A DNA stretch of 64,000 bases from Craspedostauros australis (taxonomy: Eukaryota > Bacillariophyta > Bacillariophyceae > Mastogloiales > Achnanthaceae). Position numbers and translations under genes: made by a program. Shown piece after piece: positions 20,408-59,317 of the stretch. The stretch is taken from contig JAMXDE010000031.1 of assembly GCA_026770025.1 (NCBI GenBank), positions 248,001-312,000 of the forward strand. The letters run 5' to 3'. The notes beneath the pieces are model-generated. The model saw only the letters and a program-made list of their open reading frames with translations. It had not been told where the DNA came from and ran no database searches. The first letter of the stretch is position 1. Every line of letters begins with the position of its first letter.

Positions 20408-21002
20408 AGCAACATTAGTATGTCCGAGCGTTCAGAGAAAGCTGCTAACTTGAACACAGAGGACTGCTCTACCACACAAATATCATAGAATGGAGTAGAG
20501 CAACAGCATTTGCTACCATGCTCTACAACACGATAACCATATTGAGTAGAGGAACAATGTGCTCGTGGAATATACCTATCTATTATATAGTATCTCTCAA
20601 GAGCACTCTTTTGCTCGTCGATGGTGATGTACTCTCTGCTCGAACTCGTACTCGTACTGGTAGGCAGTTCATTCGTTGGATCCAAACTGGAAGTGCTCTC
20701 CAAGATGGGGTTTCGCAATGGCCCTGGAGTCTTGTGCGTTGTCGGCACCAAGTAGCGATATCACAAGGACGATTGCATGTGTGCAGCATAGCGAGTACAA
20801 ATGTAGAAGGAGTATGGTATGGTATGGTATGGTATGGTATGGTATGGTATGGTATGGTATGGTATGGTACGACACATGATCAACGGTCAATGTCACGAGC
20901 TAAGTGCGAGTATGGTACTCTTCTTCTGTGTGATTGTTGATTCAATAGTCCAACGAAATGCCCATCACTGCGATTGGTGTCAACAATGGCAGACGCAGGA
21001 AG
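20408..21002. other. Convergent intergenic region with pentanucleotide repeat
   Basis: Between the 3' ends of the DUF1499 and Popeye-like genes. It carries a GTATG microsatellite at 20812-20868 and a TACTCGTA site at 20649. No gene; reading frames through the microsatellite are artefacts of the repeat. Confidence 0.7.
20812..20868. repeat. (GTATG)n microsatellite, about 11 copies
   Basis: Eleven and a half perfect pentanucleotide copies, ending in a single G-A-to-C variation at GTAC. The length suggests recent slippage and a likely polymorphic marker. Confidence 0.95.
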
Positions 21003-29544: not shown

Positions 29545-29811
29545 GATGTCTCTCTGTTGCGTTGTGATGTTGCTTTCTTATTTTGTCTGGTGAGTGCCTC
29601 AGCCTCTATCCCACAGTCGCTCTCCAAAGTGTTATCGTGGAACCATTTCTAGGACAGCTCCCCAGTTCTATTCTCTCATGCAATAGCTCGTATCGGGGCT
29701 TGAAGTAGTTCGGACAGATCTGCCAATTCCAACAGCTTGTCCAGTGAAGTATAGTAGATATCTCGTGAGGCAATTACCTGTGCGACCCATGAACGGCAGC
29801 TCGCATCAACA
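29545..29811. other. Spacer upstream of the RING-H2 gene
   Basis: Promoter side of the RING-H2 gene, up to the left inverted repeat of the adjacent element. No other feature is visible. Confidence 0.5.
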
Positions 29812-29829
29812 GGGACACCCGGCAAAAAG
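29812..29829 (+). repeat. Left 18-bp terminal inverted repeat
   Basis: GGGACACCCGGCAAAAAG, fully complementary to 31177-31194. Confidence 0.85.
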
Positions 29830-30069
29830 CAACGGAAACGAAAATCGACTAGTACGACTAATTCGACACCCAAGAACGATTTTGTCACCCAGACACGAGA
29901 AAGCCAAATGCGACGTTTTGACATCGATGAAGAACAAGTCTTCCTTCGAAGAACTTATGGAGGCATCCTGTTGGTCCTACTTCGGATAAACACAGCGAGG
30001 CAACGATGCAGCTCGCCGGCTTGATCGAGTCCCGTCAGTTAAGAAACCATACAGTTCGACATTCTAAAT

Positions 30070-30269
30070 AATTCGAATGACGGCTATTTAAATCTAATAA
30101 CGGCTATTTGAATCGAGTGAGGGCTATTTAAATCTAATGACGGCTATTTAAGTCGAGTCGCGGCTATTTGAATCGAATGACGGCTATTTAAATCAAATGA
30201 CGGCTATTTAAGTCGAGTCGCGGCTATTTGAATCGAGTGACGGCTATTTGAGTCGAACGACGGCTATTT
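30070..30269 (+). repeat. Array 1: ten 20-bp repeats
   Basis: Ten units with no length change, consensus RAATCGAATGACGGCTATTT. CGGCTATTT is nearly invariant; the first half varies between an A-type (AAATCTAATGA or AAATCAAATGA) and a B-type (GAATCGAGTGA, AAGTCGAGTCG). Confidence 0.95.
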
Positions 30270-30733
30270 AATTCGCAGTGCTTTCTACTCGTGATCCAAG
30301 TTGACAAGTTTGGAAATTGATCAAACCAGGTAAATGCGCCTGGTCTCCCAACGAACCCACAAATTGATGGCTCTTCGCTGCTCTGTTCTGCTCTCAAAGA
30401 ATCACAACAGAGACGGGTGTGCGTTTGGAGTGTTGTCGTCACCGTTCAAATTTCATTGCTATCTTATAAATGTGAAGCCTTGCCAAGTCGAAAAATTGAC
30501 TGTTAGGGAAGCCAATGCAAGATGGACTAGACACCTTCATCGCAGCGTTGAACTTCGCATGAGTGTTGATCAGCGTTGACCGATTGCCAAGGTTGAGCTT
30601 CCTGTGTTGCTTGGTGTGGGTGAGCGGTGGTTGATGGCCGGCTGTTGCGTTTTGTGGGGTGTGAGGGAGTGATCTAATTACTAAAATAGTGGTGGAGACG
30701 TATCCCGTGAAGACAACAGATGACTAACTAAAT

Positions 30734-30933
30734 AAGTCGAATGACGGCTATTAAAATCTAATGACGGCTATTTGAGTCGAGTGACGGCTATTTAAATCAA
30801 ATGACGGCTATTTGAGTCGAATGACGGCTATTTAAATCAAATGACGGCTATTTGAGTCGAATGACGGCTATTTAAATCTAATGACGGCTATTTGAGTCGA
30901 GTGACGGCTATTTGAGTCGAACGACGGCTATTA
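30734..30933 (+). repeat. Array 2: ten 20-bp repeats
   Basis: Ten units of the same family, here alternating almost strictly between AAATC(T/A)AATGACGGCTATTT and GAGTCGA(A/G)TGACGGCTATTT. The final unit (GAGTCGAACGACGGCTATT) is the same as the final unit of array 1, and both arrays are preceded by CTAAAT, so one is a copy of the other. Confidence 0.95.
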
Positions 30934-31176
30934 AAATCATGGGTTTGGTTGTTGCACGACTTCTCGGGATTAAATCACGAGGCTGTGCTTCAGGGTCATT
31001 TTCGGAGTTTCTCCATGATTCTCCCAACAGTGAAACTCGAAGCTATGACCCACGAAGAGTTCCTGAGAACGAAAACATGAGTCGAGAGCATTCTTTTCGC
31101 GGGAATATTTGTCATCGCCATTACAACAAGTTTTAATTGGCTGGGCCAGTCATCTCCAATATCGACTAATTCGACC

Positions 31177-31194
31177 CTTTTTGCCGGGTGTCCC
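31177..31194 (-). repeat. Right 18-bp terminal inverted repeat
   Basis: CTTTTTGCCGGGTGTCCC on the plus strand, the exact complement of 29812-29829. It ends 289 bp before the next start codon at 31484. Confidence 0.85.
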
Positions 31195-31483
31195 AGCGTC
31201 ATGGTCAATCTCTCTCCCTCCATTTCCGTGTTGGTCGTGAGTTGAAACACGTTCACGAATCGCCGTTAATAACCGTTATTCAACCCATTCCAACGCGCGC
31301 GGCTCCTCGCCGATCCACAGTTTCACATTTTGGTGAGTTGTTGTTTGTGCGACTCACTCCGCATCGGCATCGGCATCATCATCAACATAATCCAAAACGA
31401 CGAACAGATTCAGACCACCACGATCATCTGAAACTTGAACACGGAGCAATCGGCAACAAAGCATCGAAGGCGGCCAAAGTGTC

Positions 31484-46140: not shown

Positions 46141-48602
46141 TCACATGTCGTTGCTGCCGTTGGTGCGATTGCCGCCATTGCTCTTCGAATACTTGTTCTT
46201 TCGCATGCGAAGTCCCTTGCCTTCCACTTCGTAGACTCCCAGCACTTCTGCACTGTCACTCCAATAGCCGGGCCCGCCGCCCGATGCGGACTTTTGCTGC
46301 GCGAGCATCTTGAGTTCGTGCCATATTTGTGGAGGGATTTGTTCGCATCGATTCAGTAGATGGACGGACGCCATGTTCTGAGCCGTTTGGTAAATCCCCG
46401 ATAGCTGTGCACGGCAGGAACAGTAGGGATGGATTGCGTTATTGACGACGAGAACAGCAAGAAACGTGAGGAGTTTGCAAAGAGCTGGAATCGAGTAGTG
46501 TGATGCTTGCAGGTTTCACAAGATGACAAATGCAAATTACTGCAACTCCGAATGTCCAATGCGACGTTTCCTTGAATCTGAATTGCGAATGACAGCAAAG
46601 TACCAGCTCTGGTTCCGCTCGCACGCTTTGTCACATACGAGTACACCAACATCATGATGCGTCAAGATGATCATTCCAATGTCGTCACGACCGCACGTGC
46701 GAATGCCATACGGACCTTGCTGGGAAAGTACACGGAGCCCGCCTTGCGATCTTTTGGATGCAGATGAGAACAATGCCGACACCGTATCCCCACCTGCCCC
46801 AGAATGATGGCACGATTTCTGCCTTGCCGGCTGACTTCGACATCCTTTTCCGTCGCCGTGAACAATTCGACCTGACGGCGCACCATGCATTGGTAGTTGG
46901 ACAGGCTGTCGGTATCGCAAGACAAGAAGAGAGGCACGGCAGGACTGCTGGATTGGGGTTGCGGTGCCGCGGGTGGTTTGGCTGCGACGTCCAGTGCTGT
47001 ACTTGGAGCGTTTCCGTTGCCGTTAGCTTGTTGCGCGGCCACCATGTTGCCCGTCTGATGCTGCTGTTGTTGTTGCTGTGTTGGAAGGTTCATGAACATG
47101 GGCGATGTCATGTTGGCGTGCGTCGCCGAAGCAGCCTTGGCGACGCCTACCGTGTTGGTCATGTCGATGACAGAAGGCGAAGGCGTGGCGTAGTTACCTG
47201 CTTGCTGGAAGGCAGGTGCTTGCGAATTGGTCATGTTCGGTACTTGCAGATTGGGCACGCCTCCATTTCCCATCTTGGCGCCGGTGATGAAGGTCGCGTG
47301 ATCCATCTTGGTGGGGTCGAAATTGGGCTGGTTGTTGTTGTTGTTGAGTTGCCCCATGTTGTGCGGAAGGAACGCTGACGGGGCTGTCGTGTTGGCAGGT
47401 GCGTTCGCAGCCAGAGCGGAGAGTTGCGATTGCTGCAGCTGCGGATGCAAAATGGTCGCAGCCGATGCCAAGACATCGGGAGACACAACGAGGCCTGGCG
47501 AATTGGCAATGAAACCGGCGAGGAAGGGGACGAGGAGTTCCATGGCCAGATCATTTTGAATGGGAGGCATGCCTGGCTGCGACGTTGGCGAAGAGCCCGG
47601 TGCGGAGTTGAAAGCTGGTGCTTGTTGTGGCGGTTGGCCCGTGGTTGGCGCAGCTGCCGTTGTCATCATGTCGGTTTGATTTGGAGGCGTGGCTTGATCG
47701 TTCACGCCGGACATGGCTGCTATCGTCGCCGTGTCCTCCGCACTCATGGTTTGCACGGATGTGTTGAACGGCGACTGTTGGTTATCTTGTTGTTGTTGCT
47801 GCTGCTGCTGTTGTTGCTGCTGTTGCGGCTGCGGTTGTTGTTGTAGCTGTTGGTTGATCGCGGGTTGAATCTGAGCCTGAACCTGTTGTTGCTGTTGCAG
47901 TTGCAGCTGTTGATGCTGCATTTGCTGTTGCTGCGCTTGGGACTGTTGCCCTTCCGCTTGGTTGTTTGGTTGTTCGTTGGACTGCATATTGACGGAAGGG
48001 ACGGTGGGATGCCCTGGCGCTGCTGCGACTCCTGGTGCCGCTGTCAACAATGCGCCCTGCCGTTCGTCCGCAGGCCGAGTCACCGGCGAGTCGAGCTTCT
48101 GCACATCCATCATTGGGACAGCCTCGCCCTGTTGTTGCGCTGGTGAGTTTGCCGCGCTATATGCCATGTTCGTTGGTGTCTGCGGTTCCGCGACAGCCGA
48201 CTGCTGGTGGCCCAGTTGTTGCAGTTGCAGTTGCAGCTCCTGCTGATGTTGCATCCACGGTTGGGGTGTTTGCGTGCCATCATTCTGCGTCTGATGTTGT
48301 TGCTGTGCCAGAGTGGGTTGAATCTGTCCCTGAAGTTGGCCTCCTTGAGTCTGCTGTTGAGTCTGTTGTTGAGTCTGCTGCTGGGTCTGCTGTTGAGTCT
48401 GGTGCGGCTGCAGAGTTGGCGGAGGAAGGAATCCAGGTTGGTCCGGAGATGTGGGCACAGGCGTGAGCGGCGTGACGGTGGGAACAGGTCTGCCAGAGGG
48501 GTTGAGATGGGTTGGCACAGGCGTTGCGCCTTCAGGTGGGTAGATGAGGATGTAGACCCGGCCATCCGTTCCCAGGACGAGCTGCTGCGACTGAGGGTCC
48601 AT
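46141..48602 (-). CDS. PolyQ protein with C-terminal Cys/His domain expanded in diatoms (two exons)
   Basis: Exon 1 46716-48602, intron 46405-46715 (GTCCGT/CACAG, 311 bp), exon 2 46141-46404; 716 aa. The phase-0 junction gives YFPSK-LSGIYQTAQNM, restoring one domain: IRCRHCSHLHPKDRKAGSVY before it and ASVHLLNRCEQIP after it. As I recall, this C-x2-C-H module ending in a helix and a second Cys is found in many diatom and other stramenopile proteins of unknown function; it probably binds zinc. The 530 residues before it are low-complexity, with Gln-Thr repeats, long Gln runs and Pro/Asn-rich parts, like transcription coactivators. The ATG at 48602 (MDPQSQQLVLGTDGRVY) is the first good start; the frame is open upstream without a CA-rich leader, so an earlier exon may exist. 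Confidence 0.75.
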
Positions 48603-58280: not shown

Positions 58281-59317
58281 GTTTGTATCGTCGTTGGCGT
58301 CTAGATCTACGGCCCTGTTCTGTCTTGTGCTTGCGTTGGTTGCTTCCTTCCGGAGTTCCTGCACGCTGTGACTCCACTATTGATCCTTTGATGTGAGGAT
58401 CTGCAGTGTGGAGGGATATCTCGATGGCCCTGCAAGAGTTCTGTGGTGCAGGAACTTGTGTTTGGTGGCTTGACGCAGCAGCACTGTGGGCACTGCCTGG
58501 GTTCTCGCAGGCACCAATAGTTCGTCTAACGCGCACTTGTCTGAGCGCGTGATGTGTTGTACGTGTGTGGGTGGGATGTATGCACGTACGATGACGACGT
58601 TGATCCAGTTGCGTTCATCCGACTGCGTCGCCTGCAAGTGGCGACTGTCTCTCTCGAACGAAGGCAGCTCGGATGGAAGGCAATGGTGGAACAATTGAGG
58701 TCGAAAGCAAAATGTGAGACGAATTGCTGTGTTTGTGAAGTTTACGGTTGGTTGTGGAAATGTGATCTACCTTCGGGTCCTTTTCTCAGCTGCCGTTTGG
58801 GCGACTTCATCGCGTGAAATTGCCGTGTTCACAAACACGCCAGCAACACGACGTCTTGGGCCACCCGGATGAAGCAAAATCCAACTCGTTGTTTTCGTGT
58901 TGTTGTTGTTGTTGTCAATACTACAACGAGAACGTGGTACTGTGTCGATGTATGTAGAGTTTGACGTAACGCAAGTACCAGAAAAGACATGTGCGACCGT
59001 TTGAATCCGCTGAATCGAAATCAACTGCAACATCCGATTATCGACCCCTTCGATCTCTTTTGGTTGTCGGGACAGAGTTTTGGTCCAGGGCTCATGACCC
59101 AACATAGTTTTTTGAGGAAGGAGGAAGAACACGCAGGGGCGAAGAAAACCGATGAATGACCATGATTTTCTTTTGGTGGTCGGCAGTGGTGGAGGGAGAA
59201 CGGTAGTTGAATCTGCTCTGTTCCACTCAGCTCAGCCCAGCTCAGCCCAGCTCAGCCCAGCTCAGCCCAGCTCTGCCCAGCTCTGCCCTGCACATCACAA
59301 TCTCATTCTCACACGCA
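58281..59317. other. Divergent intergenic region
   Basis: Promoters of the Myb and signal-peptide-peptidase genes. It may contain the first exon of the Myb gene (minus strand, ATG near 58811). A decamer array before the peptidase start lies at 59226-59290. Confidence 0.5.
59226..59290 (+). repeat. 10-bp tandem repeat (CAGCTCAGCC)n in the peptidase leader
   Basis: About six and a half copies, the later ones with CTCTGCC. It ends 27 bp before the start codon at 59318. Confidence 0.85.

Follow-up and report, generated by a model that had tools for sequence, protein, structure and literature searches.

A probable non-autonomous PIF/Harbinger-like DNA transposon with two ten-unit tandem arrays between short inverted ends

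Introduction

Why should two tandem arrays of equal copy number lie together inside one perfect pair of inverted repeats, in the gap between two divergent open reading frames (ORFs)? The question is raised by positions 29812-31194 of the DNA analyzed here, a stretch of 64,000 nucleotides that we refer to as the window. An initial annotation of this locus described perfect 18-bp inverted repeats around two arrays of exactly ten 20-bp units, and put forward a MITE-like element that would depend on a transposase acting in trans or, alternatively, a locus whose arrays bind a host protein. A cut-and-paste insertion is recognized by inverted ends together with a target-site duplication. Based on the analysis below, the interval 29813-31193 is very probably a transposon; the features of the locus and its neighbors are listed in Table 1.

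Table 1. Positions of the element, its internal features and the adjacent ORFs in the window
Feature	Position	Strand	Remark
Left neighbor, RING-finger protein ORF, 415 aa	28297..29544	-	
Left target-site duplication, CAG	29810..29812	+	Direct reading
Left terminal inverted repeat, 17 bp, GGACACCCGGCAAAAAG	29813..29829	+	Sequence comparison
Subterminal 13-bp motif CGACTAATTCGAC	29855..29867	+	Direct repeat of right-end copy
Array A, ten 20-bp units	30076..30275	+	60-bp higher-order period
Unique central spacer	30276..30739	.	Similarity test on 30277-30720
Array B, ten 20-bp units	30740..30939	+	40-bp higher-order period
Second copy of CGACTAATTCGAC	31163..31175	+	Sequence comparison
Right terminal inverted repeat, 17 bp	31177..31193	-	Sequence comparison
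Right target-site duplication, CAG	31194..31196	+	Direct reading
Right neighbor, ORF of 513 aa	31484..33025	+	No Pfam match

Results

The inverted repeat is exact over 18 bp, as the initial annotation had stated, with its two arms at 29812-29829 and 31177-31194 surrounding both arrays. Allowing up to 3 mismatches, the 18-bp pattern occurs in the 64 kb at just these two end sites, and every other perfect inverted repeat in the window with its arms within 3 kb is shorter. Among 100 first-order Markov sequences as long as the window, the longest such repeat per sequence measured 12-16 bp and never reached 18 bp; the inverted repeat therefore exceeds chance. Another perfect inverted repeat, the 15-bp CAGAATGATGGCACG at 46800-46814 and 48273-48287, lies within the simulated range, with 15 of the 100 Markov windows reaching 15 or 16 bp. 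Imperfect inverted repeats extend to 78 nt at 71% identity among the 25 of 280 pairs listed, the longest of these 25 being located in CAG/CTG-rich sequence.

On comparing the flanks with target-site rules from the literature, we found CAG on either side of the element (CAG-GGACACCCGGCAAAAAG ... CTTTTTGCCGGGTGTCC-CAG), with outer flanks of GCATCAA-CAG and CAG-CGTCATG. The initial annotation had advised looking for a target-site duplication and reported none; the two copies of CAG in Table 1 are probably such a pair. The outermost G/C pair of the 18-bp inverted repeat is part of the flanking CAG. The outer bases of CWG are complementary, so that this G and C add 1 bp to the match, which is why the ends appear to be 18 bp and not 17 bp long. 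Once that base pair is assigned to the duplication, the element proper spans 29813-31193, a length of 1381 bp, with ends of 17 bp.

It is important to point out that the CAG was noticed post hoc, upon meeting the CWG rule of PMC4482050. Of 28905 pairs of G..C positions drawn at random from the window, 266 (0.9%) had a matching CWG at the same offset. In addition, a scan for perfect inverted ends of 12 bp that start with GG and are bordered by a matching trinucleotide returned one case in the window, 29813-31193, and was positive in none of 200 Markov sequences, with the scan accepting CNG or TNA with any middle base and so being looser than CWG/TWA. Both the frequency test and the scan were framed with the CAG already known, and we regard them as supportive, short of independent proof. 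A duplication of 3 bp is short, and by our own estimate some trinucleotide would match by chance, either right at the boundary or shifted 1 bp inward, with a likelihood of a few per cent. Exact direct repeats of 4-8 bp are lacking at corresponding positions of the two boundaries, and the only 4-base words common to both (CATG, CAGC and TCAA) occur at unequal offsets. A direct repeat CCAAAGTGT(T/C)AT, at 29624 and 31474, does not coincide with the boundaries and was put down to chance, and the score of flank against flank is ordinary (reached by 51% of shuffles).

Inside the ends, the motif CGACTAATTCGAC is present as one copy per end, both in the orientation of the arrays, and the score of the left against the right segment was reached by 2 of 300 shuffles. 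When the left segment was compared with the reverse complement of the right, no inverted similarity was detected inside the ends (94% of shuffles were as good), nor was a stable single-strand fold detected for the right segment (z -0.79).

Tandem Repeats Finder detected both 20-bp arrays, with 10.4 and 10.3 copies, and counting in register gives ten units in each, in agreement with the number first annotated. All 20 units contain a core of GGCTATT on the plus strand, and this core is absent from the minus strand of the element, which confirms the single orientation reported for the two arrays. Unit positions 1, 7-13, 16, 18 and 19 are invariant throughout the 20 units. The distances from the arrays to the outer ends vary with the phase in which the units are read, and are 263 and 254 bp in the phase used here; consequently, the flanks first given as 258 and 261 bp are indeed near-equal, but their closeness to within 3 bp does not hold.

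A gap-free alignment of the two arrays spans 211 bp, with 89% identity. Unit 9 is identical between them (20/20), and in each array unit 10, alone of the ten, has a C at position 3. Against this, units A10 and B10 agree at only 17 of 20 positions, several other B units match A10 equally well, and A1 is closer to B7 (20/20) than to B1 (19/20). Pairing each unit of array A with the unit of the same number in array B gives a mean identity of 0.885, a value attained by random pairings in 1.9% of 100000 trials. However, comparable identities, based on fewer units, are seen at offsets of +4 units (0.908 over 6 pairs) and -5 units (0.890 over 5), and register alone is therefore weak evidence. The variants shared at units 9 and 10 are better evidence, though few, and suggest that the arrays likely descend from one array. 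Self-identity is best at a lag of three units in array A (0.90) and of two units in array B (0.91).

The central spacer shows no significant similarity to the outer segments, and we found no trace of the spacer having been duplicated along with an array. Given this dissimilarity, the most economical account is that one array was copied whole from the other without neighboring sequence, and that the interiors of the arrays were then reshaped separately by unequal exchange or slippage. Slippage alone had been considered hardly sufficient to explain the symmetry of the locus, a view that is only partly borne out; the shared variants of units 9 and 10 suggest descent from one array, whereas the different periods of the two interiors fit later slippage or unequal exchange. 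The match of ten copies with ten could be a product of selection or of chance. The Myb-type motif AACGG occurs twice on the plus strand of the element and once on the minus strand, and not once per unit, and so we draw no link between the units and known Myb sites.

Other tandem repeats are found elsewhere in the window. A GTATG pentamer repeat at 20812-20869 (11.6 copies, 100% matches) lies outside the ORFs given to Pfam, and 6.1 copies of CAGCTCAGCC at 98% occupy 59228-59288, at the start of a mechanical ORF with a signal-peptide-peptidase domain. An array of 15-bp units with 45- and 60-bp higher-order periods is located inside a WD40 ORF at 2074-2223, and is probably an in-frame five-residue repeat.

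The element is without recognizable coding content. None of its stop-to-stop frames exceeds 94 aa, the length of the longest, and when the 18 of at least 40 aa were examined with Pfam at E 0.1, no transposase, DDE transposase domain or Myb/SANT domain was detected, consistent with the original statement that no protein is encoded. One frame gave a line for BTB_KLHL33 (E 0.074), which is far short of the cut-off and was treated as noise; the remaining 17 of the 18 gave no Pfam line at E 0.1. The GC content of the element is 0.447, compared to a mean of 0.541 (sd 0.023, minimum 0.488) for 1383-bp tiles taken every 50 bp outside it, making the element more AT-rich than every window tile tested. 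The immediate flanks are also AT-rich for the window, with GC of 0.48 and 0.50, and therefore part of this difference may be intergenic.

Divergent ORFs flank the element, and their first ATGs, which are mechanical start codons, are 268 bp away on one side and 290 bp on the other. Among the 20 window ORFs given to Pfam there was no transposase and no DDE or Myb/SANT domain; domains detected include CAF1A, RING, WW, VASt and signal peptide peptidase. The gene content indicates a eukaryotic host. A DUF1499 protein of the window has, by its look, a plastid-type leader, and on this basis the host is probably a stramenopile alga such as a diatom. No RNA family match at the gathering score and no tRNA were detected in the window.

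Searches for relatives included the window itself and two external collections. When the element was aligned by BLAST with the remainder of the window, 2 matches were returned, both weak (E 0.26 and 3.1). In IMG/VR, the 18-mer, a strict two-unit pattern and a loose two-unit pattern each returned 0 matches. A query of CWG joined to bases 1-16 of the inverted end returned 1 match (L008), a chance match within a 335-aa ORF; in the 9435 bp examined, L008 has neither a unit core nor, at up to 3 mismatches, a second copy. In GTDB contigs, the loose unit pattern returned 0 matches and the 18-mer 7, against approximately 7.5 expected by chance in 257 Gb by our own estimate. None of these 7, examined over 8 kb each, has an array or, at up to 4 mismatches, an opposite-strand partner; one of them (L001) shows a further near-match on the same strand with 4 mismatches, and another (L003) a single unit core. 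The absence of a second copy from the sequences searched is a point against a transposon, but IMG/VR and GTDB cover viruses and prokaryotes, and negative results there say little about a eukaryotic host.

Discussion

The inverted ends and the CAG duplication support a non-coding mobile element that is moved in trans, the mode of transposition that had been proposed from the start. We conclude that 29813-31193 is probably a non-autonomous cut-and-paste DNA transposon of PIF/Harbinger-like character, inserted at CAG between divergent ORFs. The NuwaI elements of the PIF/Harbinger-ISL2EU-Spy (PHIS) superfamily are described as having CWG duplications and inverted ends that are 12-61 bp long and in most cases begin with GGG, and most of the autonomous candidates carry genes for a Myb/SANT protein and a DDE transposase (PMC4482050). 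The one copy examined here is similar to NuwaI in its CWG (CAG) duplication and in its perfect ends, the 17 bp of which fit that range. Unlike autonomous NuwaI, it has no transposase or Myb/SANT gene, and its start of GGA agrees with NuwaI in the GG and differs in the third base, which counts against such an affiliation. The NuwaI elements in that account came from 16 animal genomes only (PMC4482050), whereas the host here is probably an alga, and this too counts against it. Provided that the locus is a transposon, the balance tips slightly toward a PHIS/NuwaI-like identity, a superfamily call based on three duplicated bases and the GG ends of one copy. PIF/Harbinger elements in the strict sense are reported to make TWA duplications (PMC4482050), a rule from which the CAG departs, and the flanks show neither the AAATTT insertion nor the lack of duplication that characterize Spy. 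In the diatom Cyclotella cryptica, 12 DNA-transposon superfamilies have been listed, PIF-Harbinger among them (PMC7466962).

Similar to Tourist-like MITEs such as mPing, which are moved by PIF/Harbinger, the element is non-coding, has short inverted ends and a 3-bp duplication, and is proposed to be mobilized in trans. In length it fits a strict definition of MITE less well, as MITEs are given as 100-500 bp and mPing as 431 bp (PMC2836001), compared to 1381 bp here. Tandem repeats within transposons have been described in several settings. Arrays inside inverted-end elements are a feature that the locus shares with the BrickBuilt MITE, which contains one tandem repeat with a leader and tail (PMC4596501), and with Xenopus MITEs that contain satellite monomers (PMC9659126); unlike BrickBuilt, the element has two matched arrays flanking a spacer. 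The Tetris foldback element, with repeats of about 220 bp inside inverted terminal repeats (PMC4079207), is likewise non-autonomous with internal tandem repeats. However, foldback elements have long inverted ends made of tandem repeats, whereas the arrays here are direct and the left and right interiors are not inverted copies.

Subterminal tandem arrays also speak for assigning the element to another superfamily such as hAT or MULE, in which case a longer duplication would have been lost by mutation or inter-copy recombination and the CAG would be chance. The mosquito MULE Muta1 is reported to have nine 12-bp copies inside 145-bp inverted terminal repeats with 8-9 bp duplications, 10 of 12 mosquito MULE families with long terminal inverted repeats have repeats of 9-15 bp (PMC5225508), and the hAT element Herves has three 100-bp repeats at one end (PMC3143072). 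Unlike Muta1, where the repeats lie within long inverted terminal repeats, the element has ends of 17 bp, a duplication of 3 bp and direct arrays. The duplications of 5-8 bp given for hAT (PMC4482050) and of 8-9 bp for the mosquito MULEs have no counterpart at the boundaries, where exact repeats of 4-8 bp were sought; furthermore, ends that are still perfect over 17 bp point to a young insertion, where a duplication of 8-9 bp should remain visible. We consider this origin unlikely.

A different possibility is that the locus never moved: it would belong to a bidirectional promoter as a regulatory or protein-binding region, and its duplicated binding-site arrays would be accompanied by an inverted repeat that is either fortuitous or functional. 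The position between divergent ORFs, close to both first ATGs, and the invariance of GGCTATT speak for such a promoter. Against this are the coincidence of the inverted ends with CAG on both sides and a composition unlike the remainder of the window, and together these make a promoter origin improbable. More improbable still is an ordinary minisatellite that was duplicated and is surrounded by a chance inverted repeat. Higher-order periods are typical of unequal exchange and would be consistent with a minisatellite, but the inverted repeat is longer than the 16-bp maximum of the simulated windows, encloses both arrays and has CAG at each boundary.

Returning to the PIF/Harbinger-like transposon, the element is of a known kind, and its same-orientation twin arrays are its sole odd feature; the passages of PMC4482050 consulted do not mention internal twin arrays for NuwaI. 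The transposase acting in trans would most likely be PIF/Harbinger-like and accompanied by a Myb-like partner. PIF/Harbinger elements are reported to need both proteins, and in zebrafish Harbinger3 the Myb-like partner binds the transposon ends and is needed for nuclear localization of the transposase (PMC2836001); for Harbinger3_DR, the Myb-like protein recognizes a 9-bp subterminal motif (PMC9710019). The 20-bp units, through the core GGCTATT, might dock such a partner and thereby concentrate transposase near the ends, and many short sites a few hundred bp inside short ends would be a strong recruiter of the partner. We put docking forward tentatively, as a possible role of the arrays that falls short of being the expected one. 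Counting against docking, the arrays are parallel in the window and are thus opposite relative to the two ends, unlike symmetric end-binding sites.

More speculatively, the element could represent a CWG-duplicating, NuwaI-type PIF/Harbinger lineage in an alga, in a non-autonomous form with two docking arrays of ten units in the same orientation, whose copy number and spacing are held equal by selection while the interiors turn over independently; we think it unlikely that all of this holds. Should the host have no other copy, the element would be an ordinary fossil, if one with a pretty interior. If a family exists in the host, its CWG duplication would widen a group described from animals only in PMC4482050, and the arrays would offer a natural test of subterminal-site recruitment by the two-protein PIF/Harbinger machinery.
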